64,000 nucleotides of DNA from the IMG/VR virus record IMGVR_UViG_3300035459_000118, positions 1 to 64,000 of that record. One strand, written 5' to 3'. Below, piece by piece: positions 4,096-60,102 of the stretch (position 1 is the stretch's first letter; the number at the start of each line of letters is the position of its first letter). The notes beneath the pieces were generated by a model. The model searched no databases. It had not been told where the DNA came from and saw only the letters and a program-made list of their open reading frames with translations. The DNA comes from a virus. The position numbers and the translations under genes were made by a program.

Positions 4096-4221
4096 TTATC
4101 CCTTGATCTCTGTTTCTTTTTTTGCTGGATCAAAACCCAGAATCTCTATTACATCTTTGGGAGTCTCAACCATTTCCTCGTCGTCAGGATCTTCGATGTC
4201 TTCTTTCTGTTCTTCGCTCAT
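4096..4221 (-). CDS. Small acidic protein between portal and Mu F genes
   Basis: 41 residues, starting MSEEQKEDIEDPDDEEMVE and ending DPAKKETEIKG, very acidic at the N-terminus. Its ATG overlaps the portal TGA (ATGA), and its TAA directly abuts the Mu F ATG, so three genes are translationally linked. GAGAGGG lies about 9 nt upstream. No family is recognised. A small portal- or Mu F-associated factor is conceivable. Confidence 0.6.
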   Translation of the reverse strand: MSEEQKEDIEDPDDEEMVETPKDVIEILGFDPAKKETEIKG

Positions 4222-41771: not shown

Positions 41772-41794
41772 GGAAACCGGCAGGAGCTGAGCGT

Positions 41795-42739
41795 ATGCAA
41801 TCGAATCTCTCGCAGTTTATCTGGTACGAAAAACACCGCCCATCAATGCTGGACGAAATGACTCTTCCCGTCCAGTATCGTCGCGCTTTCGAAGGTTACC
41901 TGAAAGAAGGGAATCTTCCGCACTTGTTGTTTCATGGTCCCCAGGGTAGCGGGAAAACCACGTTGGCCTTCGTTCTCATGAACAACATCGACTGCGTGCG
42001 GATGATTTTGAACGCTTCGTCGAGCGACCGTGGCGTTGAAACCATGCGAGGAAAAGTGAAGCAATTTGCCTCAAGCCGAACAGTTGACGGCTCTCTGAAA
42101 ATCGTGTTTTTTGACGAGAGCGACGGTCTGACTCCTCAGGCACAAGAGGCGCTGCGAAACACTATCGAAACATATGCCCAGACCTGCCGGTTTATTTTCA
42201 CCTGTAACGAGATCGACCGTATCATTGGTCCACTTCAATCTCGTTTTACCATTTTTGAATTCTCGGCGTTTCCACTTGATCAGGTTATTCAACAAGCTGA
42301 AAAGATCTTGGTCAAGGAACGCATCGAATATGATATAGAAAGCGTCAAAAAAATTGTCAACCAGCATTATCCAGATGTAAGAGCAATAATTAATAATCTC
42401 CAGTTATGTTCATCTGGAGGCGATTTAAATCCCGAAACAGTTTCCAAAACAACCGTTGACCCGGCGTTGTTGCTTGATTGCATTGCCAACGGGGAAGTTG
42501 CAAAGATACGGAAAATGCTCGTTGGGATGTCAAACTTCGTATTCGTCTACCGTTACCTGTTTGATACTCTATTGATGTGTGACGACCTCACACAAGAGCA
42601 AAAGATAGAAATAACCCACGCCTTGGCCGAAGGGCTTTACCGTGACGCGCTGGTTGCCAATCGGGAAATCAATTTCATCGACTGTGTTATAAACATTATG
42701 GGGATTATTAAATGCCCCACCATTTCATTTTTGGGATGA
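41795..42739 (+). CDS. Clamp loader ATPase (RFC small subunit / T4 gp44 type)
   Basis: 314 residues. WYEKHRPSMLDEMTLP is the RFC-type start. Walker A HGPQGSGKTT, Walker B VFFDESDGLT, sensor FTCNEIDRI and SRF (arginine finger) follow in order. It opens and loads the clamp. AGGAG is 8 nt upstream of ATG 41795. The open frame back to 41723 overlaps the clamp gene. Confidence 0.88.
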   Translation: MQSNLSQFIWYEKHRPSMLDEMTLPVQYRRAFEGYLKEGNLPHLLFHGPQGSGKTTLAFVLMNNIDCVRMILNASSSDRGVETMRGKVKQFASSRTVDGSLKIVFFDESDGLTPQAQEALRNTIETYAQTCRFIFTCNEIDRIIGPLQSRFTIFEFSAFPLDQVIQQAEKILVKERIEYDIESVKKIVNQHYPDVRAIINNLQLCSSGGDLNPETVSKTTVDPALLLDCIANGEVAKIRKMLVGMSNFVFVYRYLFDTLLMCDDLTQEQKIEITHALAEGLYRDALVANREINFIDCVINIMGIIKCPTISFLG

Positions 42740-43656: not shown

Positions 43657-44538
43657 ATGCCAAGACCCCATAAATATAAGAAAAGACAAAAAGACCTAGG
43701 TGGTCCTTGTCCAATTTGTGGAGAACCAAGGAAACTATATAAAAAGACTTGTTCAAAAGAATGCAGTTCTACCTTGAAGTCTAGAACTTTAAAGAAAATG
43801 TATGATTCTGGAGAATTAGATTTTTTAAAAGATATTCAAAAAATAGTTGGGACTGGGAACCTTGTCGCATTTAACAAAACAGAAAAAGGCAGAGAAAATG
43901 CTTCTGTTGCTTGCATAAAAAGAAATACAATCCATGGGAACCCTACAGAGAAAGAAACAATACGAATAAAGATAAGTTCTTCTAGAAAAGAAGGATTGGC
44001 TTCTGGAAGAATTCAAAATCCAATGTTAGATCCGATAAAAGCCAAAGAAGCTGGGAGAAAAAGAAAAGCTGCCTATGATTCTGGTGAAAAAGTTCACCAT
44101 ATGAAAAACCCCTTAGTGGTAAAAAAAGTAAGCGAATCTCTCAAAAAAGCCTATGCATTAGGGAAAATAACCCCAAATAGTGTTGTTTATCGGTGTCATT
44201 ACCATAGAGGTTGGTATGTTGATAAGAATGGTAATTTCCAATTTTATGCAAGCAATTGGGAATTTTTAAGAATGGAATTTTTAGATAGCTGTACAGATAT
44301 AAAATGGAGAAAAATTAGACAAGAATACCGAATCCCATATATCGATATGACAGGAGTACATAGAACCTATTTTCCGGACTTCGAGGTTCAATTTGGTGAT
44401 AAAATAATTATAGAAGAAATTGGAATTCATACAGAAGAAAAACAACATAAAATAAGATGTGCTAAGGAATATTTTAATAACAAAACAGAAATTTTTGTTG
44501 CTCTTGGAGGAAACCAATTAAATGAAAGAACTTGGTAA
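43657..44538 (+). CDS. Homing-type endonuclease, PD-(D/E)xK-like
   Basis: 293 residues. A zinc finger at the N-terminus (CPICGEPRKLYKKTCSKEC), NUMOD-like basic helices, and a C-terminal nuclease domain with YFPDFEVQFGDKIIIEEIG, where D and E-x-G/K supply metal ligands as in Vsr-like (EDxHD) homing enzymes. AT-rich and inserted between replication genes; its end overlaps the radical SAM gene by 17 bases. Confidence 0.65.
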   Translation: MPRPHKYKKRQKDLGGPCPICGEPRKLYKKTCSKECSSTLKSRTLKKMYDSGELDFLKDIQKIVGTGNLVAFNKTEKGRENASVACIKRNTIHGNPTEKETIRIKISSSRKEGLASGRIQNPMLDPIKAKEAGRKRKAAYDSGEKVHHMKNPLVVKKVSESLKKAYALGKITPNSVVYRCHYHRGWYVDKNGNFQFYASNWEFLRMEFLDSCTDIKWRKIRQEYRIPYIDMTGVHRTYFPDFEVQFGDKIIIEEIGIHTEEKQHKIRCAKEYFNNKTEIFVALGGNQLNERTW

Positions 44539-45967
44539 AGATATTGACCCGCTGGAAATAGAAATCAGAACAACCGCACAACGATGGCTCAATAATAACA
44601 AGAACCTTTTAATTTCTGGAAGTGACTACCAAAGCCCAAGAATTAGCAGTGAAATCCCTGATTGCAGTATGCCGCTCAGCATGGATACGTATAAATTTTG
44701 TTCTCTAAGTTGTTGTTATTGTTTCAGTTTTTTCTTTAAAGCAAATAATCCAGCAATAAAAAATTCTGAAACAGGAATGGATCTTACCAGTATTAATGCA
44801 AAAAAATTTATAGCTGCAATTTCTGGAAAACCTATTGACAGTCGTGGAGCTATGATGCATAAGCTTTTCTATAACCGTAAATTTCTTTTACACATAGGAG
44901 GATTGGCTGATCCCTTCTGTAATTTCGAGGCAAAAAACGGAGTAGGCTATGAAATAATGAATGCTCTGGGTGATTTGAACTACCCCACTTTATTCTCTAC
45001 CAAAGGAGCCAATGTTGCATTAAGCAAAAAGTATACCGACCTCTTCGAAAGGTATGCCAAACAAAACAACTTCGCCTTTCAAGTCAGCATGGTGACCAAT
45101 GATAAAAACATGGCTTCCAGGGTAGAAATTGGAGTCCCATCCCCAGAACAAAGAATCGAATTGATTCGTCGATATAGTGCTATGGGGTATTGGACAATCC
45201 TCCGGTTACGACCTTATATTATTGGTATTACCGACGAGTCAATCGACAGTCTCCTGGAAGATGCTCTGGCAGCTGGCATCAATGCAATCAGCATGGAATT
45301 TTACGCTCTTGATGCAAGGGCTTCAGGGGAAGCCAAAAAACGCTACGATTGGCTCGGAAAGATCGTTGGCGCCAAGAACCTCATGGAATACTTCGCTCGA
45401 CTTTCTCCCGGTGAACGTGGGGGATATCGTCGGTTGAATCGTCTTGTCAAAGAAATCCATGTCAAGAAGGTCTACAAGTTCTGTATCGAACATGGCCTAG
45501 AGTTTGGTTGTTCAGACCCTGATTTCAAGGAACTCACCACGACCGGATCATGTTGCGGGATGCCAGACAAATACGAAAAGAATCATCTTCTGGAAAACTG
45601 GACCCGCCAGCAGATGACATTCCATCTTAAGGAAGCAAGAAGAATCTATCATTTAACCGGCAAATTGAATACTTTCCGGTTTACCCAGGTATACAAAGAC
45701 GAACCATATTTTGACTATCCTGGCCTAAGTCACGATCATGTTTGTGAAACAAGTATGTGCGCAGCCGACCGGGTAAACCTTACTTACCGTAGAATCCTAC
45801 GCAACTATTGGAATAATCTCCGTTCGTATGCTGCTCCCCAAAACTACTTTCATGGGAAAGTCATCGCTTGCGGGATGGATGAAAACAAAGATTTGATCTA
45901 TACGTATAATCCTATGCCGTATGAGAAACATTGGGCTGAAGAGGGGATTGACTTGAAAGGAAAGTAA
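44522..45967 (+). CDS. Radical SAM protein, SplB-like
   Basis: 481 residues. CSLSCCYCF at about 61-68 gives the CxxxCxxC cluster for the 4Fe-4S/SAM centre. LADPFCNFEAKNG and IGLRRYS-type strands of the TIM barrel follow, and further cysteines (TGSCCGMPD, CETSMCAAD) near the end may hold another cluster or zinc. The layout resembles spore photoproduct lyase relatives, which act on thymine in DNA. Located at the head of the modification genes, so it probably alters a modified base. Substrate unknown. Confidence 0.75.
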   Translation: MKELGKDIDPLEIEIRTTAQRWLNNNKNLLISGSDYQSPRISSEIPDCSMPLSMDTYKFCSLSCCYCFSFFFKANNPAIKNSETGMDLTSINAKKFIAAISGKPIDSRGAMMHKLFYNRKFLLHIGGLADPFCNFEAKNGVGYEIMNALGDLNYPTLFSTKGANVALSKKYTDLFERYAKQNNFAFQVSMVTNDKNMASRVEIGVPSPEQRIELIRRYSAMGYWTILRLRPYIIGITDESIDSLLEDALAAGINAISMEFYALDARASGEAKKRYDWLGKIVGAKNLMEYFARLSPGERGGYRRLNRLVKEIHVKKVYKFCIEHGLEFGCSDPDFKELTTTGSCCGMPDKYEKNHLLENWTRQQMTFHLKEARRIYHLTGKLNTFRFTQVYKDEPYFDYPGLSHDHVCETSMCAADRVNLTYRRILRNYWNNLRSYAAPQNYFHGKVIACGMDENKDLIYTYNPMPYEKHWAEEGIDLKGK

Positions 45968-46533
45968 TGAGTAAGTGCATTTTCATCGATACAGAAACTA
46001 CATCCGCCAATCCCGATAGGGGTGGGCTGATTCAACTTTCAGGGATCATTGAAATTGATGGCACAATAGCCGAAGAATTCGATATTCATACCAACATTTT
46101 CAAGAATGACGAAGTGACAGAAGAAGCCCTTCAAACAAATGGATACACATTGGAACAAATCTATGGCTTCTCCCATCCCAACAAGGCTTTTGTCGAATTT
46201 AGAAAGCTCCTCGAAAAATATGTTGACCCGTATAATAAGGCTGACAAATTCATTGCCCTGGCCTATGTTGCGAATTTTGACAATACAGTCCTAAGAGAAT
46301 GGTTTCGTAAAAACGGCTCCCAGTATTTTGGCAGTTATTTTTGGCACCCTTGGATTGATATATTCAATCTTGCGGCCTATTTATATCAAGACCAACGAGC
46401 GCAATTTGAGAATTTCAAAATGAAAACCGTTGCTGCTTATTTGGGAATTGAATGTGATCAAGAGCAATGCCATGGAGCACTTTACGACACGAAAATTGCC
46501 CGGCAAATATACTACAAATTAACGAGTCAATAG
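45967..46533 (+). CDS. DnaQ-type 3'-5' exonuclease
   Basis: 188 residues. FIDTETTSANPDRGG (motif I, DxE), LAYVANFDNTVLREWF (motif II, with Asp) and HGALYDTKIARQIYY (motif III, HxxxxxD) make a DEDDh exonuclease. Since the phage polymerase is DnaE-like and lacks this domain, it is the likely proofreading subunit, encoded separately. Confidence 0.85.
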   Translation: MSKCIFIDTETTSANPDRGGLIQLSGIIEIDGTIAEEFDIHTNIFKNDEVTEEALQTNGYTLEQIYGFSHPNKAFVEFRKLLEKYVDPYNKADKFIALAYVANFDNTVLREWFRKNGSQYFGSYFWHPWIDIFNLAAYLYQDQRAQFENFKMKTVAAYLGIECDQEQCHGALYDTKIARQIYYKLTSQ

Positions 46534-46542
46534 GAGGAGAAA

Positions 46543-47640
46543 ATGGGAAACAAAAAAGTCAGGGTCGCTATCATCGGGGTTGGGAACTGCGCATCGTCAT
46601 TGGTGCAAGGTGTGCACTATTATCGGAATGCCAACGAAAAAGAAACAGTCCCAGGATTGATGCATGTCAACTTGGGAGGGTACCATGTGAACGACATCGA
46701 ATTTGTTGCAGCCATCGACGTTGCCGCAGCCAAAGTAGGCAAAGATCTTAACGAGGCGATCTTTGCCGGCGAGAATAATACGATTTGTTTTGACCAAGGA
46801 CTCGTCAATATCCCAAGCGGAGTTACCGTCCAGAGGGGAATGGTCCATGATGGCATTGGGCAGTATCTCAAGGAGGTCATCCCAATTGCTCCTGGGTCGA
46901 CCGAAGATATCGTTCAGCTGCTGAAAGACACCCATACCGATGTGGTCGTGAACTATTTGCCGGTCGGTTCCGAAGAAGGAACAAAATGGTATGTAGAACA
47001 AATCCTGCAAGCCGGTTGTGCCATGGTCAACTGCATTCCTGTTTTCATCGCCTCGGCACCGTTCTGGTCAAACAGGTTTAAGGCAAAAAATCTTCCCATT
47101 GTGGGGGATGACATCAAATCGCAGGTCGGAGCGACAATTACGCACCGGGTATTATCGTCTCTGTTTCAGGCTCGGGGAGTCCGCCTTGACCAAACATACC
47201 AACTAAACTTTGGTGGCAATACGGATTTCCTCAATATGCTGGAACGTGGCAGGCTGGAGTCAAAGAAGATTTCCAAGACCAGTTCAGTCCAGTCTACTAT
47301 GGAAAAGGAATTGAACTGTAACGATATTCATGTCGGTCCTTCAGACTATGTTCCGTTCCTCACCGACCGTAAGTTCTGTTACATCCTCATGGAAGGAACC
47401 ACGTTCGGCAATGTTCCCCTGAAGCTCGAACTCAAGCTCGAAGTCTGGGACAGCCCCAACAGTGCCGGCGTCGTGATTGATGCCGTCAGGTGTGCAAAAT
47501 TGGCTTTTGACAATGGGGTGTCAGGAGCCTTGAAATTACCCTCGGCCTATTTCATGAAACACCCAGCCGAGCAAATCGAGGATACCATTGCGAAGCTGAA
47601 GCTGGAAGAATGGATCAAAATGATTGGAGAAAAGGAATGA
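46543..47640 (+). CDS. myo-Inositol-1-phosphate synthase
   Basis: 365 residues. [17 protein letters not shown] (NAD-binding), [30 protein letters not shown] and [20 protein letters not shown] match inositol-3-phosphate synthase of the bacterial (actinobacterial-type) branch throughout, with the catalytic Lys/Asp patches kept. It converts glucose 6-phosphate to inositol phosphate. It is very unusual in a phage and sits within the hypermodification genes, suggesting an inositol-derived group for DNA or a nucleotide sugar. GGAGG precedes the ATG. Confidence 0.88.
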
Positions 47641-48341
47641 AAACAATACCAGGATTTGAGTTTCGGGAAGATTCTAATGCAGACATACGAGCCTTTTCCG
47701 AAGCTCGACATGACTGGAAATTGTTTACGTTCCCTGGAGAGGCAAGGGTCTTGGACTTGGGTGCCCATATAGGGATATTTGCCTATTTTGCGGCACCCAA
47801 TTGCCGTAAACTCTTGTGTGTAGAACCATCACGAGAATCGTTCAATATCCTCGAACGCAATGCCAAGCTGATAAAAACCGTATTCCCAGCAGTGGAAATA
47901 GAAACACTTCCCGCTGCAGTGGTTCAAAGCGAATTGAACGGACAAAAAGTCCAGCTTTACCAAAAGAAAAATTCCGAAACCAGCGACACCCTCCTCCCAA
48001 CTAGGGGGAGGGTCGGAAGTTCAACCATGGGGGTAGGCATCCTGGAACTCTGCAAAAGGTTCCTCCCCACCACAATCAAATGTGACATAGAATGTTCCGA
48101 ATACAATGTCATCCCAGAAATCCTGTCATTCTCAAGCATACTGGAAATTGGGATTGAATTCCACCGGCTCCAACAGGGAGACAACTTGGAAAGGGCTAAA
48201 GCCATTTCCGAAGCCATCATCAATAACTGGGGAGGAGGCCATGTTATTATTAAACCTCCTGTTTTTGACAAAAAATATTGGAATACTGTAGCCATATACA
48301 GGCGTAACCTTTCCTCAAGATTCAGGAAGAACAATGGATAA
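47637..48341 (+). CDS. FkbM-like SAM-dependent methyltransferase
   Basis: 234 residues from ATG at 47637, overlapping the MIPS stop (ATGA). [15 protein letters not shown] is SAM motif [15 protein letters not shown] motif II, and [16 protein letters not shown] the FkbM-type acceptor region. FkbM enzymes methylate sugar hydroxyls, so methylation of an inositol or base substituent is plausible. Ends SSRFRKNNG. Confidence 0.75.
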
Positions 48342-49452
48342 ATCCGTCGAAAGCGTCAGGAAAATTGCCGCCGAAGCCGATCAATGGAAGAACTTTGCCG
48401 ATTTTTGTCGACTTGAAATGGCGGTAGGTGGGCCAGACCCTCACATGAAGTTGACCGCAGCAATGTGCAATCTAGATTCGTGTCCCTGGTCAGAAAAGGC
48501 ATGGAGGGGACTTTGTTACCTTGGAGTTTACAATGTTCCCACCGCCGAGCAAATATGGAATGCGTGGCACTTTGAGCGATCTATCATTGAGAGGGAAGAA
48601 TTTCTTCCTTGGTTTACCAAACACTGGCAAGGGATTGCGCTCCGTCGGGAGCGTAAAAGTGCCCGTAGCCCAATCAAGATGGCAAAGTATTTTGAAACCG
48701 CTTCTGCTTGGCTTTCTGAAGCACTCCTTGATAAAAAAGAAGGGATCGGATGGATCGGAGGGATGAAAGATTTATCCCCTTTTGACCGTTACGAATTTGC
48801 CTGGGAGAATGTCCAGCAAATATACTCGATGGGTCGCTACATTGCTTTCAAGTATCTTCAGTATGGGATGCAATATCTTGATTTCCCTATCAATCTGCAA
48901 GATATCCGAGCAAAAGGAGGATGGTCTCCTCGTGCCATGTTGGCAATTCTTTGGCCAGATCAGGCAGTTCCTATCCTGGGAGGGGATTCTCCAGAAGAAA
49001 TTGCAGTTGTTGATACGTATGCTGCGAAAACAAAAGCATATTTATTAGAAGGGTATGGAGTAGACCTCTCTTGGTATAATTTGCAGGTCTTGCTATGCGA
49101 CTACAAACAATGCTATGTTGGGAAAAGGCAATTCCCAGGGAGAAGTCAAGATAGTGAAATTGCCTATGCCAAGAAGATTGAAGATTATTGGGGAGGCGAT
49201 ACAATTATGTGGGAGGCTCGCTCCATGATCTTTCCTCATCAAGCCCTAGGAGAAATGAATGGTTGGTATTCTGTCCGTGAAGAATTAGGCAAGGTCCTTT
49301 ACGACCATGGATATATGTGGTCTGATCTGATTTACGATTACAATCTTTCAAAAACCCGTCTTGCTACTCCAGTGAAACACGGGGAGAAGCCAGGGAAAAG
49401 TCAAAAAACCCTAGCCTGGGAGTCAGGATTCGGGAGGTTTTTTAAAAAGTGA
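48334..49452 (+). CDS. Alpha-glutamyl/putrescinyl thymine pyrophosphorylase-like enzyme
   Basis: 372 residues. The central block YSMGRYIAFKYLQY followed by LDFPINLQDI and GGWSPRAMLAILWP is the signature of the aGPT-Pplase family (clade 2/3), helical DNA-glycosylase-like proteins in thymine-hypermodifying phages. The family is thought to replace the pyrophosphate on 5-hydroxymethyluracil in DNA with an amine or other group. Conserved His/Glu near RSMIFPHQALGEMNGWY fits an active centre. The C-terminus GFGRFFKK resembles a clamp-binding tail. Confidence 0.75.
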   Translation: MDKSVESVRKIAAEADQWKNFADFCRLEMAVGGPDPHMKLTAAMCNLDSCPWSEKAWRGLCYLGVYNVPTAEQIWNAWHFERSIIEREEFLPWFTKHWQGIALRRERKSARSPIKMAKYFETASAWLSEALLDKKEGIGWIGGMKDLSPFDRYEFAWENVQQIYSMGRYIAFKYLQYGMQYLDFPINLQDIRAKGGWSPRAMLAILWPDQAVPILGGDSPEEIAVVDTYAAKTKAYLLEGYGVDLSWYNLQVLLCDYKQCYVGKRQFPGRSQDSEIAYAKKIEDYWGGDTIMWEARSMIFPHQALGEMNGWYSVREELGKVLYDHGYMWSDLIYDYNLSKTRLATPVKHGEKPGKSQKTLAWESGFGRFFKK

Positions 49453-50513
49453 GCACCTTAAAGGTCCATACTATTATTCCCGGAAAACTATACCAGAGAG
49501 GGGAATTTGTTAAACTCTCATTGAAAGAGAAGTTGAGCGAACTACAAAGGCTCAGGGTGAATATCATCGTCAACCTCTGGAATATCCCAGACATTCTTTT
49601 GAAGGATGAAATTCCTTATTATTATCACCTTCCAATCCCAGACAGCACCATAAAAGATAGTCAGTTATTGCTACATACCGTAAAAGAAGTTGCGCAGCTA
49701 ATCAAAAATGGTGGAAATGCTATTGTTCATTGTCATGCTGGAAGAAACAGGAGTGGGTTGTTCAATGCTTTGTTGTGTATGAACTTATTGGGGATGTCGG
49801 GTACCGAGGCAATAGAACATGTCAGAAAACGCAGACCAAATGCGCTGGCGAATGAAAACTTCGTGAAGTTTATTCTTGAACAAGGAGAAAATAAGATGCT
49901 CACGCGTAGAATAATCGCCATTGGTGGAGTCCCAGGAACAGGAAAAACCTGTTTGGTCAGAAAATTAATGGAGCCGGAAGATCAATGGGGTTGTTGCGAA
50001 CTTGCAAAACTCTTGGTTGCCGAATATAACAAAACACTCAATTTATACGTTTTGGGGAAATACGAAAAAGGCGAGGTTTTCGCTGGAACCGATCGGCTTT
50101 CCATGGCCGTCCAGCCAGAAGCACAAAAATGGGTTGAATCAAGTTGTTCCAATATCCTTTTCGAAGGAGACCGGCTTTTCAATGGATCTTTTCTGAGCTT
50201 CCTTTTGACCTTGCCGAATACTGAATTGCTCGTGATTTACCTGAAAGCCTCAGAATTTGAACTGAGGAAAAGATATCAACAACGAGGTTCCGACCAATCC
50301 TTACAATTCCTGAAGGGAAGAGAAACAAAATACGCCAAAATCAGACAAGATATGAGGCTCCGAAAATTCAGTTGCGAGTTTGCCCATGAAACCCCAGAAG
50401 ATACAAAAAAGATCATTGCCACTGTTCAAGCCTTTCTTTCCACTGGAACTTTACCCCCTACATTGCAAACCGCTGCCCCCACAGGAATCATGAGCTTCCT
50501 TAAAAAGAGGTAA
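49449..50513 (+). CDS. Dual-specificity phosphatase fused to 5hmU-DNA-kinase-like P-loop protein
   Basis: 354 residues from GTG (GTGA overlap). Residues 1-140 form a protein-tyrosine/dual-specificity phosphatase with the loop HCHAGRNRSG (Cys and Arg of Cx5R). Residues 155-340 form a P-loop kinase: IGGVPGTGKT, then FAGTDRLSMAVQPEA and LFEGDRLF, typical of 5-hydroxymethyluridine DNA kinases of hypermodifying phages. The kinase would phosphorylate hmU in DNA as the leaving group for the pyrophosphorylase. The fused phosphatase may reverse or edit this. Ends TGIMSFLKKR, clamp-tail-like. Confidence 0.75.
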   Translation: MSTLKVHTIIPGKLYQRGEFVKLSLKEKLSELQRLRVNIIVNLWNIPDILLKDEIPYYYHLPIPDSTIKDSQLLLHTVKEVAQLIKNGGNAIVHCHAGRNRSGLFNALLCMNLLGMSGTEAIEHVRKRRPNALANENFVKFILEQGENKMLTRRIIAIGGVPGTGKTCLVRKLMEPEDQWGCCELAKLLVAEYNKTLNLYVLGKYEKGEVFAGTDRLSMAVQPEAQKWVESSCSNILFEGDRLFNGSFLSFLLTLPNTELLVIYLKASEFELRKRYQQRGSDQSLQFLKGRETKYAKIRQDMRLRKFSCEFAHETPEDTKKIIATVQAFLSTGTLPPTLQTAAPTGIMSFLKKR

Positions 50514-50515
50514 CA

Positions 50516-53500
50516 ATGTTTACACACCTGCATGTCCATAATCACTTCAGCTACCTCGATGGCTTCGGTACCGAAGAAGAATACATCAAAAGAGCCAAAG
50601 AACTCGGAATGACACATCTTGCTATCACAAATCACGGGAACGTGGATGGCAATATCAAATTTCAAAAAGCCTGTAAGAAAGCTGGGATCACCCCCATCCA
50701 TGGGTGCGAACTCTATGTTATTCCTGATGAATATCAAAAACCCAAAGGCGAAAAAAGAGGACATATAATCGTCCTTGTTAAAAACGCGAAGGGATGGCAG
50801 AATCTTTGTCAAATGCTCACCATCGCCCACCTTGAGGGCTTCTACTATAGGCCTCGCATCGGATACAAGAATTTTCTGGAACGGTGCGAAGGGTTGGTCG
50901 TTCTGACAGGCTGTTCTTCTTCGTTTTTAGCAAAAGACACCACCGACAAAGCACTTGATTTCGTTTCCGCATTGTATGACAAAATAGGGTCAGATTTATA
51001 TCTGGAAACAATGCCCCACCGTCTGGAAGAACAAGACAAACAAAACGCTCTGTGCCTCGATTTTCAGGGACAAGTAGGAAATATTAAGCTAGTTGCCACC
51101 AACGACTGTCATTATATCCATCCCGATGAAGCCGAATCCCAAGAAGTTCTTTTGGCAATTCAAACCAAAAAGAAATGGTCAGAAACCGACCGTTATCGCT
51201 TTACTATCAGAGGGCTTTACCTCAAGTCAGAAGAAGAAATGCGCCGAGCATTCAAATTACAAGCAATTCTCTCTGATTCCCAAATCGATCAGGCATTTGC
51301 TTCAACGATGGAAATAGCTGAAAAATGCCAATTTCTGATTCCTAAACAGGACATCTCTCTCCCAAAAGTTCCTGGATATGAAAACGAAGACCCAGGGAAA
51401 TTTATATGGGACCTAGCCGAGAAGAAACTCTTAAAAATCAGCGAAAATTGGTCGACTGAAAAGATCAATATATACTTGGACCGGCTTTCAGAAGAATGGA
51501 AGTTGATAAATTCAAAGAACTTCAGTCAATATTTTATGATCATCTGGGAATTAACTTCTTGGTGCCGTAAGAATAAAATACCCGTTGGCCCTGGCCGTGG
51601 CAGCGTAGGAGGGAGCCTTCTGGCTTATCTTTTGGAAATCACTACGTGTCTAGACCCCATTGAGTATCATCTTTTGTTTTCTCGTTTTATCGCAGAAGAC
51701 CGTATTGATTATCCTGATATCGACTTAGACTTTGCCGATATAGAACGTCTTAGAATTCGCGAACATCTTGAAGCCCTTTATGGGAAAGATCACATTTCCT
51801 CCCTTTCCACATTCACAACAATGAAAGGAAGGGGTTGTGTTCGTGATGTTTGCCGGGTATTTGAAGTTCCAATATACGAAGTCGATGCATTGGCAAAATC
51901 TATTTTTGAAGACCCAGAATCAGATGAAAGTGGCGTTGAAAATGTTTTAAAAAACACCGATTTTGGGAAGGTATTTCTTGAAAAGAACCCCAAGGTATGT
52001 CAGCATATTCTAAAGCTGGAAGGTCAATGCCGTGGAGCCGGCCAACATGCAGCGGCAATAATGATTTCCGGAGAAAGCCTCCGCAACGGGACAAGAGGCA
52101 ACCTTGTCATGCGCTCCGAGGAAACCGTCACCAATTGGGATATGGGGGACTCTGAATACGTAGGATTAATGAAACTCGATGTCCTTGGGTTGAATACCCT
52201 TTCCGTATTAGAAGAAGCCAAACGGCTCATTATCAAAAACTCAGCAAAAACAGGGTTTGATTTCGACTCAATCCCATTGAATGATGAAAAAGTTTACCAG
52301 AGTCTTTATGAAGGAAACACCAATGGAGTTTTTCAGTTTTCAGCTTGGGCGACTACCAATCTTGCCAAACAACTTAAAGCAACCAATATTTTTGAACTCG
52401 CCGACATCATCGCCCTAGTAAGGCCAGGTCCAGCAGACAGCGGACAAACCGACTTGTATATTAAACGAAAGAACGAAGGGTTGGAATGGCAACCAAAGCA
52501 TCAAATTTATGAAGAAATAACTAGGAATACTTTTGGCATCATCGTGTATCAAGAACAAGTAATGGAAGTTATTCATAAGGTCGCTGGATTACCTTATGCT
52601 ACTGCTGATAAGATTCGCAAGATCATTGGTAAAAAAAGAGATGTTAAAGAATTCCAGCCTTATAAGGATGCCTTTATACAAGGTTGCGCAAAGATGAAAA
52701 CCCTCTCCCATAAAGAGGCTGAAGAATTCTGGGAGATGCTTGAAAAACACGCACACTATAGTTTTAACAAATCCCATTCTATCGCCTATGCCCTTATCGG
52801 TTATTGGACTTCTTGGATAAAGGTCCATTTCCCCGTTGAATTCATCTGCGCTTCTCTTACTTACGGTTCAGAAAGCAAGAAAGAAGATCTCCTACAAGAA
52901 GCCTTCGATATGGGGTTGAAAATCATTACCCCCAAAATTGGTATTTCTGATGCAACAGTATGGGTAGCAAAAGACGACTCCCTCTATATCCCATTCAATG
53001 AAATAAAAGGGGTCGGAGATACGACCGCCAAGAAACTGAGTGAGGTTAAAGAAGCCGCAATTCCTATACGCAAGGGCTTCTTTTGGCCAACCAAGCAAAT
53101 TAAAGCTCCTCAAAAATCGGTTAATAAAAAAGTAGACTCATTGCTTGCTCAAATTGCCGAGGCTGAAAATACTTCTAAAGATTTATCGGAATTCTTCTCT
53201 TTCAAAATCCCTTCTGATCGGCAAAAAAATTACGATATTCTGAAAAGAACTATACCTCAATTTGACGGGAACAAAAGATGGTTGAACCTCGATGTCCCTG
53301 AAATTAAAAGCAACCAACCATTAATTTATGAAAAATCTTTTGTCCCAAAACGATCGCTCGGAAGATGTAACGATTGCGAACTGCACAAGGAATGCGACGG
53401 TCCAGTCCCATCTTCGCCAGGAATATTCAATGTCGGAATAATAGGAGAGGCTCCAGGATTTGATGAAAATCAACAAAAGAAAGGTTTTGTTGGTAAGTCT

Positions 53501-53890
53501 GGGAAGATGCTTTGGGATGAACTGATAAAATATGATCTTCGGAGAGAAGACTTCCATGTCGGTAATGCTGCTAAATGTTATCCCGGGATCAACAAAACTC
53601 CATCTGCCGAACAACTGAAAATTTGTTCAGAAAAATGGTTGTTCCCCGAACTAAAAGAAATTGACTGTAAATTGATACTGGCTTTTGGCAATTGTTGCCT
53701 CCAGGCATTTATGGGGAAGAAATCGGGGATAACTCAGATAAGCGGAACCACGGAATGGTGCGAGAAAGCTGGAGCCTGGATATGCTTTTGTGTTCACCCC
53801 GCATTTGTTTTAAGAAGCCCAGAAAATAAAAACCTCTTTAAGTCTGGAATTAAAAACTTCGTCGATAAAATTCGTCTATTAGAAGGGTAA
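50516..53890 (+). CDS. dnaE: DnaE-type DNA polymerase III alpha fused to a UDG family 4-like domain
   Basis: 1124 residues. The PHP domain begins HLHVHNHFSYLDG. The palm has GPGRGSVGGSLLAYLLEIT and PDIDLDFAD (catalytic Asp pair). The fingers have NKSHSIAYALIGYW. The C-terminal 190 residues, after a linker, match iron-sulfur uracil-DNA glycosylases: CNDCELHKECDG, GEAPGFDENQQKKGFVGKSG, NAAKCYPGINKTPSAEQ and HPAFVLRSPE. The polymerase lacks the usual bacterial clamp/tau tail. The glycosylase-like domain may read bases such as uracil or hmU at the fork. A single continuous frame; GAGGT before the ATG. Confidence 0.88.
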   Translation: MFTHLHVHNHFSYLDGFGTEEEYIKRAKELGMTHLAITNHGNVDGNIKFQKACKKAGITPIHGCELYVIPDEYQKPKGEKRGHIIVLVKNAKGWQNLCQMLTIAHLEGFYYRPRIGYKNFLERCEGLVVLTGCSSSFLAKDTTDKALDFVSALYDKIGSDLYLETMPHRLEEQDKQNALCLDFQGQVGNIKLVATNDCHYIHPDEAESQEVLLAIQTKKKWSETDRYRFTIRGLYLKSEEEMRRAFKLQAILSDSQIDQAFASTMEIAEKCQFLIPKQDISLPKVPGYENEDPGKFIWDLAEKKLLKISENWSTEKINIYLDRLSEEWKLINSKNFSQYFMIIWELTSWCRKNKIPVGPGRGSVGGSLLAYLLEITTCLDPIEYHLLFSRFIAEDRIDYPDIDLDFADIERLRIREHLEALYGKDHISSLSTFTTMKGRGCVRDVCRVFEVPIYEVDALAKSIFEDPESDESGVENVLKNTDFGKVFLEKNPKVCQHILKLEGQCRGAGQHAAAIMISGESLRNGTRGNLVMRSEETVTNWDMGDSEYVGLMKLDVLGLNTLSVLEEAKRLIIKNSAKTGFDFDSIPLNDEKVYQSLYEGNTNGVFQFSAWATTNLAKQLKATNIFELADIIALVRPGPADSGQTDLYIKRKNEGLEWQPKHQIYEEITRNTFGIIVYQEQVMEVIHKVAGLPYATADKIRKIIGKKRDVKEFQPYKDAFIQGCAKMKTLSHKEAEEFWEMLEKHAHYSFNKSHSIAYALIGYWTSWIKVHFPVEFICASLTYGSESKKEDLLQEAFDMGLKIITPKIGISDATVWVAKDDSLYIPFNEIKGVGDTTAKKLSEVKEAAIPIRKGFFWPTKQIKAPQKSVNKKVDSLLAQIAEAENTSKDLSEFFSFKIPSDRQKNYDILKRTIPQFDGNKRWLNLDVPEIKSNQPLIYEKSFVPKRSLGRCNDCELHKECDGPVPSSPGIFNVGIIGEAPGFDENQQKKGFVGKSGKMLWDELIKYDLRREDFHVGNAAKCYPGINKTPSAEQLKICSEKWLFPELKEIDCKLILAFGNCCLQAFMGKKSGITQISGTTEWCEKAGAWICFCVHPAFVLRSPENKNLFKSGIKNFVDKIRLLEG

Positions 53891-53898
53891 CTTATTAT

Positions 53899-54711
53899 AT
53901 GATAATTTATAAAATTGAAAATAAAATTAATGGTAAAATTTACATTGGAAAAACAACAAAATTATTAAATCAAAGAATTGCTGGTCATATAAAACAAAAT
54001 CACTCTCGTATTCAAAAAGCCTTAAGAAAATACGGGATTGAATCTTTTATAATTTCTACTATTGATTCCGCAACTTCGCAAGAATCCCTCAATGAAAAAG
54101 AAAAGTATTGGATTAAAACTTTGAATTGTCAACACCCTAATGGATATAATTTTACTATCGGTGGAGATGGGGGACCAACATGGACAGGAGGAAGACACAC
54201 CCAAGAAACAATAAAGAAAATGAAAGAAAGAAAATTTTCAGAAGAACATAAACAAAAATTAAAAGGTCCTAAATCAGAAGAACATAAACAAAAAATTTCA
54301 AAAGCTCTTTCCGGAGAAAGAAATCCTAATTATGGGAAGCCTCTTTCTGAAGAAACAAAATTAAAAAAGAGATTAGCGATGTTAGGGAGAAAAGATTCAG
54401 AAGAAACAAAACTAAAAAAGAAAAATGCAGCGACAGGGAAACATCCTTCTGATGAAACGAGGATTAAACAAAGGGAATCGCATTTAGGGCAAATTTGGAG
54501 CGATGAAGCAAGAGAAAAAAGTCGAAAAGCCCATTTAAATAAATCACATATTTGTAGCGACGAGACAAAAGAAAAAATACGTAAGTCTCGCTTAAACATA
54601 AAGCATTCCAAAGAATCAAAAGAAAAAATGAGTAAAATCAAGAAAGGGAAACCATGGAATCAAGCGAGAAGAGATGCATATAATAAAAAATATCAAAAAC
54701 TTCGTCAATAA
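53899..54711 (+). CDS. GIY-YIG homing endonuclease with NUMOD3 repeats
   Basis: 270 residues. IIYKIENKINGKIYIGKTT (GIY-YIG), a Glu-containing helix (LNEKEKYWIKTLNC), then seven to eight NUMOD3-like helices of the form SEE-x-K-x-K. The N-terminal 90 residues are about as similar to the GIY-YIG at 28169 as relatives would be. It sits between polymerase and recombination genes, AT-rich, freestanding and apparently intact. Confidence 0.85.
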   Translation: MIIYKIENKINGKIYIGKTTKLLNQRIAGHIKQNHSRIQKALRKYGIESFIISTIDSATSQESLNEKEKYWIKTLNCQHPNGYNFTIGGDGGPTWTGGRHTQETIKKMKERKFSEEHKQKLKGPKSEEHKQKISKALSGERNPNYGKPLSEETKLKKRLAMLGRKDSEETKLKKKNAATGKHPSDETRIKQRESHLGQIWSDEAREKSRKAHLNKSHICSDETKEKIRKSRLNIKHSKESKEKMSKIKKGKPWNQARRDAYNKKYQKLRQ

Positions 54712-55309: not shown

Positions 55310-55849
55310 ATGTCATTTGAAACTCCCGACCTCAATTATGCCGAAGACATCAAGGTAGACCCATACAACCTTGACCTTGAATGGGCTCAGTTGCCAGGTT
55401 TGCATTCCAAGTGGGCAACCAGGCTTATTGAGGTTGAGAATCAGCGCGACCGGCTCAGGGAACAGATCGAGCTGAAATATGCCGAATTGGATCTGGAAAT
55501 CCGATCCAACCTCGCGCAATACAAACTGGGAGAAGGCTCTCCGGAACGTGCGATTAAATCCACCATCGTAAAGAATGAACAATATAAAACCCTCCAGCAG
55601 CAATACCTGAACGCGAAGTATGCGGCGAAAGTCTTGAGGATCGCCGTTAAGGGAATAAAAGATAAAGAGAAAACCATCGATCGTTTGACCAAGCTCTATC
55701 ATGATCAGTATTACATGAAGCCGTACAAAGGCAAAGAGGAGGGTGAGTTGTCAGAAAGAAAGCCGGAAGATGAGGCAACCGAAAACACGGCAGGGGCAAC
55801 GGCAGCCCTTAATGCCCATATGAACGTAAAAAGGTTTTTCAGGAGATAA
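55310..55849 (+). CDS. UvsY-like recombination mediator (candidate)
   Basis: 179 residues. DPYNLDLEWAQLPGLHSKWA, followed by coiled helices with regularly placed Glu/Arg/Lys, matches the shape of phage UvsY-type proteins, which help RecA-like proteins displace SSB. Located beside SSB and RecA genes. The C-terminus reads HMNVKRFFRR, another clamp-tail-like end. The family call is moderate. Confidence 0.6.
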   Translation: MSFETPDLNYAEDIKVDPYNLDLEWAQLPGLHSKWATRLIEVENQRDRLREQIELKYAELDLEIRSNLAQYKLGEGSPERAIKSTIVKNEQYKTLQQQYLNAKYAAKVLRIAVKGIKDKEKTIDRLTKLYHDQYYMKPYKGKEEGELSERKPEDEATENTAGATAALNAHMNVKRFFRR

Positions 55850-55851
55850 TA

Positions 55852-55989
55852 ATGGACCTTCTAAAGTGGGTCGGAGTAACAATTTTGGCAATAATAGGCG
55901 TCTGGATCTTCGGGAGACTTTTCTGGGGATCTTTGTTCGTCAGTTTTTTTAAGGCAAAAGAAAGATATACAAACAAAAAGGAAGAATAG
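55852..55989 (+). CDS. Small membrane protein
   Basis: 45 residues with one membrane helix (GVTILAIIGVWIFGRLFWG) and a basic end. Starts two bases after the preceding stop with AGGAGA upstream. Its function in a recombination-gene cluster is unclear. Confidence 0.55.
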   Translation: MDLLKWVGVTILAIIGVWIFGRLFWGSLFVSFFKAKERYTNKKEE

Positions 55990-56003
55990 AAAGGAGAAAA
56001 GAA

Positions 56004-56372
56004 ATGAATCAGCAGCAACGAAGTTATGCATTGAATCGAATAAACGAGATTCAAAAAGAGAAGGTGGCCGCGATTAAAGCCCGATTCACCATGCCGGCGA
56101 AGAAATTGGAAGGGGAGGAATTTGTCTCTCTTATCCGGGCCGGAAAAGTGAAGCTAAGGGCCGACGCCCAGTATTATCATGATCTCAACAAGGCATTTGA
56201 TTTCTCGAAATATGAACACGCGGAGCGGTACGACTCGACCAAGGGAGATCCCATCATCTTCAAGGTAGAAAAAGAGGCAGGCAAAGCAAAAGATATCGTC
56301 ATGTTTACCAACGAGGAACCGCGATGTGAGGCGGCAATCGCTAATTTCATCGCACAAATCGATAAGTTATAA
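56004..56372 (+). CDS. Hypothetical protein
   Basis: 122 residues, helical with basic N-terminus (MNQQQRSYALNRINEIQKEK), patches RADAQYYHDLNKAFDF and EEPRCEAAIANF. AAAGGAG precedes the ATG. Lies immediately before SSB; could be a DNA-binding accessory. Family unknown. Confidence 0.6.
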   Translation: MNQQQRSYALNRINEIQKEKVAAIKARFTMPAKKLEGEEFVSLIRAGKVKLRADAQYYHDLNKAFDFSKYEHAERYDSTKGDPIIFKVEKEAGKAKDIVMFTNEEPRCEAAIANFIAQIDKL

Positions 56373-56397
56373 TTAAATCAAAGTGAAAGGAGAAAGT

Positions 56398-57558
56398 ATG
56401 GGAGTTGATCGTGAAAAGATGAAGCAAGACCTGCTCAACAGGACTAAGGAGTCCTATGACAGGAAGGATGGGGAGGCGGGTCAAAACCACTTCGATCCGG
56501 AACTGGAGATCCCGTTCTGGAAACCGGGAACAACCCAGGGAAAGCCTCATATCATTGACACCATACCGTTCCTGGCGGGACCAAATTTTCCCACCAACGT
56601 CCCCAGACCGGTGCGGGAAGGAGACTTTGCCTACGTATTGGACTTATGGGTTCACAAAGCTGTCGGTCCCGGAAAGGCTACTGTCGTTTGCCCGGCACGA
56701 AACTACGGCAAAAGATGCCCAGTCTGCGAAGACGTCGAGAACCTCATGACAACAACAGGTCAGGAATACCTCGACATTCCCCATCACGCAAAGCGTCAGT
56801 GCACCTACAACGTCCTCGTGATGGATGATGCAGTTACTGAGGCCAAAGGTGTTCAGGTCTGGGATGTCAGCCACAAGTATTCCGAAAAGGCCATTGCCTC
56901 CCTAGCGATTTCGGCAAGAGGAGGGGGGTACATTGCCTTCTCCTCCCCGGAAAAGGGCATCGGCAAATCCATTGCCTTTGATGTCGCCAAGGATAAGTAC
57001 AAGACGATCAGTGGGCATCGGTTCGAGGAAAGAAATTACGATATCCCCCAGGAAATACTAGACCAAGCAATTCCCCTTGATACCATCATCAAAATCTACA
57101 CGGCGGAAGAGCTGATCGAGATCCTCTATCCGGATGGAGTTAAGCCTGAGGCGGCAGGCACTGGGAATCCTCCCGTTGAGACTGCCGGCACCGGCGGACT
57201 GCGATCATTGAGAAATCAAGGCGGAGCTCCTGATGCTGGAACGGTAGCCGGTCCAGGTCCCGTCCGTACCTTGAAAGGAACTGCAGGATTAACTCCGAAG
57301 ACGGATACCTGCCCCATCGGCGGAAACTATGCCGACGACCATGATAAGTATGAGGAATGCAAGGCCTGCGAAAAGTTCAAGGCATGTGCCGAAGCCCTCG
57401 ATCTCAAGGATGCCGCTCGATCTCAGAATAAAACGGCCGAGACCACACAGACAACTACGACACAGGCAGCAGCGACCGGAGCTGCCGCAACTACCGCTGG
57501 AGCAGGGACAGTTGCCCCTCCTAGGAGAACGCTACTCCGTCGTCCTCCCGCAGTATAG
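56398..57558 (+). CDS. Single-stranded DNA-binding protein (T4 gp32-like)
   Basis: 386 residues from ATG at 56398 with AAAGGAG 5 nt upstream. The OB-fold core includes NYGKRCPVCED (part of a zinc site) and PHHAKRQCTYNVLVMDD. After about residue 250 the tail is Ala/Gly/Thr-rich, with a second Cys group (CPIGGNYADDHDKYEECKAC) and the end RRTLLRRPPAV instead of an acidic tip. It coats single-stranded DNA in replication and recombination, next to UvsY-like and RecA genes. Confidence 0.75.
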   Translation: MGVDREKMKQDLLNRTKESYDRKDGEAGQNHFDPELEIPFWKPGTTQGKPHIIDTIPFLAGPNFPTNVPRPVREGDFAYVLDLWVHKAVGPGKATVVCPARNYGKRCPVCEDVENLMTTTGQEYLDIPHHAKRQCTYNVLVMDDAVTEAKGVQVWDVSHKYSEKAIASLAISARGGGYIAFSSPEKGIGKSIAFDVAKDKYKTISGHRFEERNYDIPQEILDQAIPLDTIIKIYTAEELIEILYPDGVKPEAAGTGNPPVETAGTGGLRSLRNQGGAPDAGTVAGPGPVRTLKGTAGLTPKTDTCPIGGNYADDHDKYEECKACEKFKACAEALDLKDAARSQNKTAETTQTTTTQAAATGAAATTAGAGTVAPPRRTLLRRPPAV

Positions 57559-57577
57559 TTCGGAAAAGAAAGCACAT

Positions 57578-57601
57578 GGACCGGGAAATTGTCCCCGGTC
57601 C
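57578..57601 (+). other. Hairpin after SSB gene
   Basis: GGACCGGG pairs with CCCGGTCC over an 8-base loop. No U-run follows; a likely mRNA 3'-protecting or processing site between SSB and RecA genes. Confidence 0.5.
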
Positions 57602-57629
57602 TCCGCAATCATAAAAAGAGGAATCTTAC

Positions 57630-58679
57630 ATGCCATTTAATGTCCCGAAGAAAAAGCAGGATACAAAAGAATTAATTTCTGACATCAAAGATACTATCGA
57701 AAACGGGGAACTTACCCCCATTGAACAAAAGCCAATCGAATGGGATAAGGTCCCAATCATAAGCACCGGATCAACTCTTCTTGACCTTACAATAAGCGGA
57801 GGAAAAACCTACGAAGGTGGCATTCCTGCTAGCATTTTCTGCGAAGTTCATGGTCCTCCAGGTTCCGGAAAAACAGCCATTCTTTCTACTGTTGGAGCCA
57901 ATGCTCAGCTCATGGGAGGGGACATGAGGCTTCAGGACCCTGAATCCAGAACTGATCAGGAATATGCCAGAATATATGAAATCGCATTGGACAAAACCAA
58001 TTATTCGCGACCAGCAAGAGTCGAAGATATATTTGAAGTTATCAAAACATGGGATACCCCAAAAAAACCAAAAGTCCTATTGACCGATTCCCTTGCTGCC
58101 TTAACCACTCAGATGGAACAAGACGATAAGGATGGAATGAGTCAACAAAGAGCCAAGCAATTTCATAAAGGATTCAGAACAAATGCAAGGATTATTGCCG
58201 AAATGCTTTGGCTTTGCTCAAACCAGGAAATTGATGGCCCCAAAGGAATGAATACTCCAGGAGGGAATGCTATCAAGTTCTATGCTTCACTTCGTATTCG
58301 TCTCCACCAAGTTGAAAAAATCGAAGTTAAAAAAGAGAACAAATATGGGGTTAAAGTAACCGACATTATTGGTATCGAAAGTGAGTGCTTTGTTACCAAA
58401 AGCACAGTTGACGATCCCTACCGTTCATGTCCTATCTGCATCGTCTTCGGCCTCGGGCTTGACGACGTCCGTGCAAATTTGCAATATTTGAAGGATATGC
58501 AAAAGCTTACTGGATACCCCACTCCTGATGGAAAGAAGTATATGGGAATGGATCAGGCAATTCTTCATATTGAAGAAAATGGGATGCAAAAGGCATTGAG
58601 AGATCAAACCATAATCATGTGGCATGAAATTCAGGAATTGTTCAAATTTAACCGAAGCCGAAAAAAGATTCACTATTAA
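57630..58679 (+). CDS. RecA/UvsX-type recombinase
   Basis: 349 residues. HGPPGSGKTAIL is Walker A at about 74; VLLTDSLAALTT is Walker B; MNTPGGNAIKFYASLRIRL is the L2/DNA-binding region and beta-strand core typical of RecA. It catalyses strand exchange with the UvsY-like and SSB products encoded just upstream. The N-terminus is MPFNVPKKK, close to the SRFN-x-P tag. Confidence 0.85.
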   Translation: MPFNVPKKKQDTKELISDIKDTIENGELTPIEQKPIEWDKVPIISTGSTLLDLTISGGKTYEGGIPASIFCEVHGPPGSGKTAILSTVGANAQLMGGDMRLQDPESRTDQEYARIYEIALDKTNYSRPARVEDIFEVIKTWDTPKKPKVLLTDSLAALTTQMEQDDKDGMSQQRAKQFHKGFRTNARIIAEMLWLCSNQEIDGPKGMNTPGGNAIKFYASLRIRLHQVEKIEVKKENKYGVKVTDIIGIESECFVTKSTVDDPYRSCPICIVFGLGLDDVRANLQYLKDMQKLTGYPTPDGKKYMGMDQAILHIEENGMQKALRDQTIIMWHEIQELFKFNRSRKKIHY

Positions 58680-58690
58680 AGGAGGAAAAT

Positions 58691-59248
58691 ATGTCTACAA
58701 GATTCATCGAAGCCTCAAAAGAGGCGTGTGAAATGACGGTCAAAGTTCAGCAGGAATGGTTCCCACAACTGGAAAAGGCCGTCATCAAATGCCTGTTTGA
58801 CACCAAGATGCGCAAACGGGGGAACAAGGTTGTCCTCGGCAGGATACTCAAGGCCAACGACCTGATCCGTCGGCTTACCGACACCATGGCCGAGGAAGGC
58901 TGCGACTATATCCTTTTCCTGGACGAAGTCGCCTTCACCAATATCCCTGATGCCGACAAAGTTCGGCTAGTGAGGCACGAACTCCGGCACTGCAAAGTCA
59001 CGGGAACCATCGAGAAACCAAAGTATAAGATCATACCCCATGACATTGAGGATTTTGTCATTGAGATCGAACTTAATAAAGACAAAATCAACTGGGCTAC
59101 CGATGCTGCTCGGCTCGTTACCGACATCTACGAGCAGATCGAAGAGACCAAAAATGAAGAAGAACAAAAGAAAGAAACTCAAGAACCTCCGGCACAGCAG
59201 CAAGCGGTTGCCCCCAAAAGCCGATTTGGCTCACCGAGGACTGCATAG
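58691..59248 (+). CDS. Putative phage metallopeptidase
   Basis: 185 residues. VRHELRHCKV with HExxH, preceded by FLDEVAFTNI, matches the putative phage metallopeptidase family found near replication genes. Both ends carry motif-like peptides: MSTRFIEAS and KSRFGSPRTA. GGAGG before the ATG. Cleaved target unknown. Confidence 0.75.
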   Translation: MSTRFIEASKEACEMTVKVQQEWFPQLEKAVIKCLFDTKMRKRGNKVVLGRILKANDLIRRLTDTMAEEGCDYILFLDEVAFTNIPDADKVRLVRHELRHCKVTGTIEKPKYKIIPHDIEDFVIEIELNKDKINWATDAARLVTDIYEQIEETKNEEEQKKETQEPPAQQQAVAPKSRFGSPRTA

Positions 59249-60102
59249 TGCTACTTATTATTGACAGTAATTACGTTTCATGGGTCTGCGCCTATGCCCT
59301 TTCCCGAGGGATGGAGTATAAAGGAGGCAGGACGGAAGTTGTCTTCGGCTTTATGCGTCAACTGTTTTCTCTATTTGAGAACTTCGAGCCGACACAGGTA
59401 GCCTTCTGCTGGGACTCCAGACAAAGCAAGCGTCGGGAAATCTATCCCGAATACAAGGCAAACCGCCACAAAGAAAAAACCGAAGATGAAAAGGAATCCC
59501 AGTCTCTTATTCTTGAACAATTTGAAGAGATAAAAAAGGAAGTCTTGCCATTCTTGGGGTTTGCTAATATCTTTGAGGTTTCCGGGTATGAGTCCGATGA
59601 CCTGATCGCAGTCCTGGTTCAACAAGGGCTTTATCCGGCCGACAAAACCATCGTAATCAGCTCTGATGCCGATCTTTACCAGTTATTAGGCCAATGCTCC
59701 CTTTATTCCATAACGAAGGCGCAAACGACAAATCTGGACGGTTTCCAGAGGAATTACGGAATAACCCCCGACGACTGGGTCAAAGTCAAAGCCATGGCGG
59801 GTTGTTCTTCTGACAATGTAAAAGGCATCAGTGGAATTGGGGAGAAAAAAGCCATCGACTATCTGACAGGCAAACTGAATCATGGCAAGATGTTCTTGAA
59901 AATAAAAGACTCACAGGAAATCATCGACCGCAATCTTCAGTTGGTAGAGCTACCCTTTATTGGGACTCCCATCCCAAAGCTCCGCAGGAACGGTCTTATG
60001 CTGGACTGTTTTACTGTTGTTGCTCAAACCTACGGACTGAAATCCCTGCTTGACAAGAAGAGCCTCTTACGGTGGGAAAAGATTATTCGGAGAATTGATT
60101 AA
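59248..60102 (+). CDS. 5'-3' exonuclease (FEN family)
   Basis: 284 residues from GTG overlapping the preceding TAG. IDSNYVSWVCAYA, FCWDSRQSKRREIYPEYKAN, GYESDDLIAVL and SSDADLYQLL give the acidic residues of the PIN/FEN active site, and VKGISGIGEKKA the H3TH DNA-binding loop. It removes RNA primers and flaps at the lagging strand. Promoter M5 overlaps its 3' end. Confidence 0.88.
   Translation: MLLIIDSNYVSWVCAYALSRGMEYKGGRTEVVFGFMRQLFSLFENFEPTQVAFCWDSRQSKRREIYPEYKANRHKEKTEDEKESQSLILEQFEEIKKEVLPFLGFANIFEVSGYESDDLIAVLVQQGLYPADKTIVISSDADLYQLLGQCSLYSITKAQTTNLDGFQRNYGITPDDWVKVKAMAGCSSDNVKGISGIGEKKAIDYLTGKLNHGKMFLKIKDSQEIIDRNLQLVELPFIGTPIPKLRRNGLMLDCFTVVAQTYGLKSLLDKKSLLRWEKIIRRID

Follow-up and report, generated by a model that had tools for sequence, protein, structure and literature searches.

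A phage family C DNA polymerase bearing a C-terminal family 4 uracil-DNA glycosylase domain that may clear uracil at the replication fork

The window, the 64,000-nucleotide stretch of viral DNA analyzed here, contains at 50516-53890 an open reading frame (ORF) that is assigned, from its sequence, to the family C (DnaE) polymerases and that carries a family 4 uracil-DNA glycosylase (UDG) at residues 947-1120. In the preferred reading, held at a probability of roughly 0.6, this phage replicase carries a family 4 UDG, catalytically competent and specific for uracil, that would remove this base at the fork; the activity, the substrate, the strand and the repair that follows are what we infer. The features of the fusion gene are listed below, where Tth stands for Thermus thermophilus UDGa.

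50516..53890, plus strand: DnaE-UDG fusion gene, 1124 aa (ORF, domain profiles and model)
50516..53066, plus strand: DnaE core, with PHP 4-167, palm/thumb, fingers 561-726 and a weak HhH 800-850
53156..53182, plus strand: KDLSEFFSF, a [YLF]F-x-F motif after the HhH, conserved in the alignment
53183..53353, plus strand: linker (residues about 890-946), modeled with low confidence
53354..53875, plus strand: family 4 UDG domain, residues 947-1120 (PDB sequence matches, AlphaFold, Foldseek)
53366..53377, plus strand: predicted cluster cysteines C951 and C954 (CNDC), invariant in 40/40 distinct DnaE-UDG sequences
53444..53458, plus strand: motif A, GEAPG 977-981, with E978 aligned to Tth E41
53564..53578, plus strand: N1017 (aligned to Tth N80) and predicted cluster cysteine C1021
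53624..53626, plus strand: predicted fourth cluster cysteine C1037 (alignment)
53795..53806, plus strand: motif B, HPAF 1094-1097, with H1094 aligned to Tth H155

Pfam recognized PHP (4-167), DNA_pol3_alpha (307-558), fingers (561-726) and UDG (973-1107; E = 5.8e-18) domains in the ORF, while residues 2-873 matched DNA polymerase III alpha, both as a profile (TIGR00594; 755 bits versus a cut-off of 434) and in the 2hpi and E. coli alpha structures. The catalytic aspartate motifs PDIDLDF (400-406) and KLD (553-555) are present, with D401, D403, D405 and D555 being invariant in a 24-row alignment. As such, the PHP, palm/NTPase and fingers regions and the catalytic aspartates of a family C polymerase were all found by Pfam, alignment and NCBIfam. 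Matches to cellular DnaE profiles and structures end near residue 850-873, the C-terminus being occupied by the UDG, and the C-terminal OB and tau-binding domains of the cellular type were detected neither here nor in the phage DnaE proteins of the L112 type. The protein is, on these profiles, classed as a family C polymerase and not as a full cellular-type DnaE. The [YLF]F-x-F motif is a possible clamp-binding peptide. The full-length model (pLDDT 86.7; pTM 0.73) comprises two folded regions with a linker of low confidence between them (pLDDT < 50 at residues 902-932) and does not resolve the interdomain geometry; its best fold match is Pol III alpha 2hpi (E 1.3e-60), with the C-terminal domain matching 1ui1.

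The initial annotation had read the ORF as a family C polymerase with a fused UDG-like domain of family 4, a reading borne out by Pfam, NCBIfam, PDB matches and the predicted fold. In NCBIfam, UDG_fam4 (TIGR00758) was matched at 951-1113 (E 8.4e-25) and UdgX more weakly (1.8e-20), with the UDG_fam4 score of 87.5 bits falling under the curated whole-protein cut-off of 125.3 and UdgX likewise falling under its own. A PDB sequence search matched residues 947-1120 to family 4 UDGs, the best being 1ui0 (1.8e-22 for the domain alone). The AlphaFold model of the domain (mean pLDDT 91.3) was closest in Foldseek to 1ui1 (E 4.5e-15; TM 0.75-0.83), the top matches being Thermus and Thermotoga family 4 UDGs. 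The domain is accordingly described, at the level of sequence, as a divergent family 4 member. Both the catalytic residues and the fold, on which the annotation had made its assignment depend, are present. The cysteine group and GEAPG that it listed were likewise found at C951, C954, C1021 and C1037, the four positions expected of a 4Fe-4S cluster (itself a prediction), and at 977-981, whereas HPAF, listed as an end, lies 27 residues short of the C-terminus. GEAPG and HPAF conform to the family 4 motifs GE(A/G)PG and HP(S/A).

The Thermus enzyme (1ui0/1ui1) and the window domain have in common the fold, the pocket and the cluster cysteines. They differ in that the former is a stand-alone protein, with 28% identity to the window domain in a structural alignment, and in that Tth KCRPP is replaced by KCYPG and Tth FHPA by VHPA, with two cysteines before it. 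Tth UDGa binds uracil through E41, G42, E47, F54, N80 and H155, with a water positioned by N89 (PMC5387724). According to the alignment, all of the uracil-pocket residues so named are present in the window UDG: besides those listed above, A979 occupies the position of G42, E984 and F991, just downstream of motif A, correspond to E47 and F54, and N1026 is the counterpart of N89. Because E47 blocks thymine in the Thermus enzyme (PMC5387724), retention of E984 leads one to expect specificity for uracil only, such that 5-substituted uracils should be excluded. Family 4 UDGs act on both single- and double-stranded uracil-containing DNA, with narrow specificity (PMC5387724). Covalent trapping of the UdgX type was considered and rejected, since despite the common family 4-like fold, the KRRIH R-loop with its nucleophilic histidine is absent from the alignments, and motif A reads GEAPG rather than GEQPG (PMC10359453). 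That the domain is a dead relic was also rejected, given the conservation of its residues. The window UDG is thus, most likely, an active, uracil-specific glycosylase tethered to a replicase.

Three scans of IMG/VR, using a UDG alignment, a DnaE alignment and a subclade UDG alignment, yielded 45 DnaE-UDG loci, counted as 41 distinct contigs, together with 65 PolA-UDG loci. The fusion is hence found in at least 41 viral contigs besides the window phage, a recurrence that argues against an assembly accident. Among the best 80 bacterial UDG loci of a bacterial genome scan, none was fused to DnaE. Scans of viral contigs with single proteins (UDG, the whole protein, ADDT) had returned no relatives, apparently because patterns taken from a single sequence did not coincide with those that are conserved, whereas the alignment-based scans succeeded. 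UDG genes in faecal 'Bacteriophage sp.' scaffolds were rejected as fusions, being stand-alone. In L042:1967-5377, a stand-alone UDG gene lies directly upstream of an unfused dnaE, such that both functions are adjacent yet separate.

Mean column identity of the UDG among relatives is only 40%. Still, counting the window, all 40 distinct DnaE-UDG sequences keep the four cysteines and 37 of them keep all five catalytic features, although some search patterns included motif A, which biases the E978, A979 and E984 counts from those scans. In the 11 distinct relatives recovered through DnaE motifs alone, a route free of bias toward UDG motifs, the four cysteines, the equivalents of N80 and H155, and an accepted motif A doublet were found in 11/11. 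In L028 and L109, motif A reads GQDPG, a natural match to the laboratory double mutant E41Q-G42D of Tth UDGa, in which activity is restored to within 5-fold of wild type, as opposed to the roughly three orders of magnitude lost with E41Q alone (PMC5387724). Since both lie within one seven-row clade, the change may represent one event.

In the proposed mechanism, a family C replicase would hold the UDG on a flexible C-terminal tether. Uracil arising from cytosine deamination or dUMP misincorporation, in the single-stranded template or the nascent duplex, would be flipped out at the fork, and the glycosidic bond then cut. The abasic site would pass to host AP endonuclease together with phage 5'-3' exonuclease and NAD ligase, or to phage RecA. 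Because of the tether, uracil would be removed only where phage DNA is being replicated, in a genome for which no dUTPase was detected, and the position of the UDG, just after the putative clamp-binding motif, would place it near the clamp and the nascent duplex. With such placement, post-replicative removal is easier to square with a moving fork than is excision in front of it, which could be harmful, since an abasic site in the template can stall the polymerase. Removal would thus take place at or just behind the fork. The conserved catalytic residues argue against a purely structural role, and the pocket chemistry and distribution against reading of hydroxymethyluracil (hmU).

A structural role nonetheless has a viral precedent. 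The D4 protein of vaccinia virus is a family 1-type enzyme. D4 works as a UDG inside a viral replicase, doubling as a processivity factor, although it is a separate subunit (PMC10253040). The domain studied here could similarly be mainly a DNA-gripping or processivity module with excision secondary, a reading we consider unlikely but the best of the alternatives. In its favor are RHEph10, SPO1L1, PMBT14, Serbin and LysYB1, where the domain is kept despite lost catalytic residues, implying a non-catalytic use there, and a search of one candidate ORF (41022-41771) for a sliding clamp, which gave nothing convincing. Against this, the DnaE clade retains the catalytic residues almost without exception, the doublet in L028 and L109 is a correlated change of an activity-preserving kind, and the window encodes a clamp loader-like AAA gene, implying a clamp. 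This gene and others of the neighborhood are as follows.

41723-42739: clamp loader-like AAA gene (profile)
44522-50513: possible base-modification cluster directly upstream of dnaE-UDG (profiles)
45967..46533, plus strand: separate DnaQ-like 3'-5' exonuclease (RNase_T 5.4e-14; phrog_192 2.8e-26)
48334..49452, plus strand: ADDT-like (amino acid:DNA transferase) gene (Pfam 8.1e-11)
49449..50513, plus strand: fusion of a dual-specificity phosphatase (DSP) and a P-loop kinase, 2 bp upstream of dnaE-UDG
55310..60102, plus strand: orf179, gp32-like SSB, RecA and 5'-3' exonuclease, downstream replication genes

The genome carries an exact 123-bp terminal repeat, pointing to an assembly that is complete and either circular or terminally redundant, such that the genome is probably complete. 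Homologues of orf179, SSB, RecA and the exonuclease follow dnaE-UDG in relatives as well. The DnaQ-like exonuclease is the likely proofreader. Between 44522 and 50513, profiles identified radical SAM, DnaQ-like exonuclease, inositol-3-phosphate synthase, FkbM methyltransferase, ADDT-like and DSP phosphatase-P-loop kinase genes, an assembly that suggests a base-modification, hypermodification-like cluster.

This cluster bears on the proposal, made in the initial annotation, that the UDG domain screens hmU or hypermodified thymine in the template or anchors the polymerase on modified DNA. The ADDT-like, kinase, radical SAM and FkbM genes directly upstream speak for such a role, as do the thymidylate-synthase-family genes of SPO1-type and some other polymerase-UDG phages, as well as the hmU content of SPO1 DNA (PMC5977210). 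The proposal fared poorly all the same, and we regard it as improbable, more so than a processivity role. The fusion occurs in relatives without a detected ADDT: a direct protein search that picked up the window's own copy found none in 13 DnaE-UDG contigs, and the Pfam model, used without a positive control, found none across 15 fused records. Nor did any P-loop kinase reach its cut-off in DnaE-UDG relatives. E984 is retained, the counterpart of a residue that excludes thymine. Finally, ThyA-family PF00303 gave no match in the probably complete window genome, although controls rang, queries with divergent phage thymidylate synthases and hydroxymethylases found nothing there better than E 0.05, and no ThyA-family gene was seen flanking another 39 DnaE-UDG loci. 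As to the earlier supposition that the phage alters thymine, the upstream cluster agrees with it, whereas the want of a detectable ThyA-type hydroxymethylase in an apparently complete genome does not. A link between the UDG and thymine modification is thus faint, although the cluster makes one specific to this phage conceivable.

The sole thymidylate synthase family found in the genome is ThyX (PF02511), and PF00692 dUTPase was not detected in it. As markers, both were rejected: ThyX is no guide to whether a phage has the fusion, and dUTPase was not found in unfused relatives either. A T4 gp1-like dNMP kinase, followed by the overlapping ThyX reading frame, lies at 63182-64899.

Thymidylate synthases reappear where polymerase-fused UDG sites are degenerate. 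A PF00303 member was found in 5/5 such phages (SPO1L1, LysYB1, PMBT14, Serbin and RHEph10), perhaps three independent cases, with flanks only partly covered; the RHEph10 gene looks like an ordinary ThyA. Listed by locus, the degenerate polymerase-fused UDGs (L017, L018, L020, L025 and L026) all co-occur with thymidylate-synthase-family genes. A rule tying decay of the UDG to hmU production by the phage fitted well with PF00303 but was weakened by more sensitive queries. With these, thymidylate-synthase-like genes were seen flanking 10/56 intact IMG/VR PolA-UDG loci, all 10 with intact sites, and MW202455 likewise pairs an intact site with such a gene, so that these genes do not force decay. 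The association, noticed after the fact, is a weak lead. More broadly, and quite tentatively, a large group of uncultured phages may replicate with a family C polymerase able to cut uracil out at the very fork it drives, such that one polypeptide would catalyze both replication and base excision, with the domain having decayed in some lineages to a non-catalytic reader or grip, possibly along with modified thymine.

Defenses based on dCTP deaminases exist, and a fused UDG handling the dU pools that they create in the host, or damaging uracil-containing DNA of competitors, would suit a phage lacking a detectable dUTPase, yet nothing else favors such a role, no direct genomic link was found, and many excisions would fragment the phage's own DNA, making this a very remote prospect.

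The history of the fusion was considered in a polymerase-core tree (quick maximum likelihood, 72 rows, SH-aLRT only), where L269, L027 and L107 form a group with the window (support 100). UDG presence and absence changes 5 times on this tree, once at L291 and once in the uncertain RHEph10/Troll4 region, where two long branches meet. The domain is cleanly absent from L112/L114-L117 and L121/L122, at least two nested sublineages, and no UDG was found elsewhere on their contigs, some of which are fragments; it is hence not essential everywhere. The polymerases of L112 and L114-L117 end near residue 896, right after the [YLF]F-x-F motif (SYFIF*). Change counts cannot separate gain from loss, although loss is the simpler reading, since UDG-less rows are nested inside UDG-bearing ones. 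In L291, the C-terminal part of the UDG lies in a separate 120-aa ORF beside dnaE, be it through a frameshift, an assembly error or a true split. In L029, L031, L033, L113, L118 and L120, an extra conserved segment of ~110 aa separates the FxF motif from the UDG; this is possibly a relic OB fold, although Pfam is silent on an OB domain there.

The closest known systems are PolA-UDG fusions of the SPO1 type, of the PaBG group, where they have been described (PMC7412058), and of phiLo (PDB 9qhs, a 2026 entry titled 'phiLo family-A DNA polymerase with modified template'). These likewise join a replicative phage polymerase to a family 4-like UDG, yet the polymerase is of family A and the UDG N-terminal. 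The initial annotation was right that SPO1 joins a UDG-like domain to an unrelated polymerase; as this is PolA, joined at the other end, the fusions look independent. Functionally, the parallel is poor, the SPO1L1 domain having lost its cysteines and the equivalents of N80 and F54. Catalytic residues are also lost in PMBT14, Serbin and LysYB1 but kept in most IMG/VR PolA-UDG examples examined, with motif A counts biased by retrieval partly through motif A. Seven Rhizobium phage records have a homologous C-terminal extension on DnaE. In RHEph10 (NC_034248 gp048), the one sequence read, the deposited record notes 'uracil-DNA glycosylase-like', but the active site is degenerate, with motif A TDAPN, alanine at the N80 position, asparagine for H155 and no cluster cysteines. 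A broad survey of phage polymerases makes no mention of UDG or uracil (PMC11348598), and no description of a DnaE-UDG fusion was found in the open-access literature, to which the search was confined. DnaE-UDG is a distinct, little-noticed counterpart of the PolA-UDG fusions, for which we claim no priority.

To our knowledge, cells assign replication and the repair of uracil to different proteins, and archaeal polymerases do no more than stall when the template presents uracil. Here, DNA copying and uracil clearing may be combined in one protein, useful for biochemistry given its two predicted activities, and a replicase with an intact predicted glycosylase offers a system in which to ask if excision can be coupled to synthesis without fork collapse. 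Natural absences, decayed sites and the Gln-Asp doublet provide matched comparisons.

Two further observations concern the remainder of the genome. A GIY-YIG homing endonuclease gene (53899-54711) begins 8 bp after the dnaE-UDG stop codon, and another two such genes lie close to the capsid gene, where the genome ends. On the minus strand, an 815-aa ORF (4218-6665) combines a phage portal (residues 90-442; 3.1e-113) with a type IB topoisomerase core (residues 612-795; 9.8e-18), for which the phage collection yielded a single match, in Bacteroides phage BS162P1, to a gene whose annotation reads topoisomerase.
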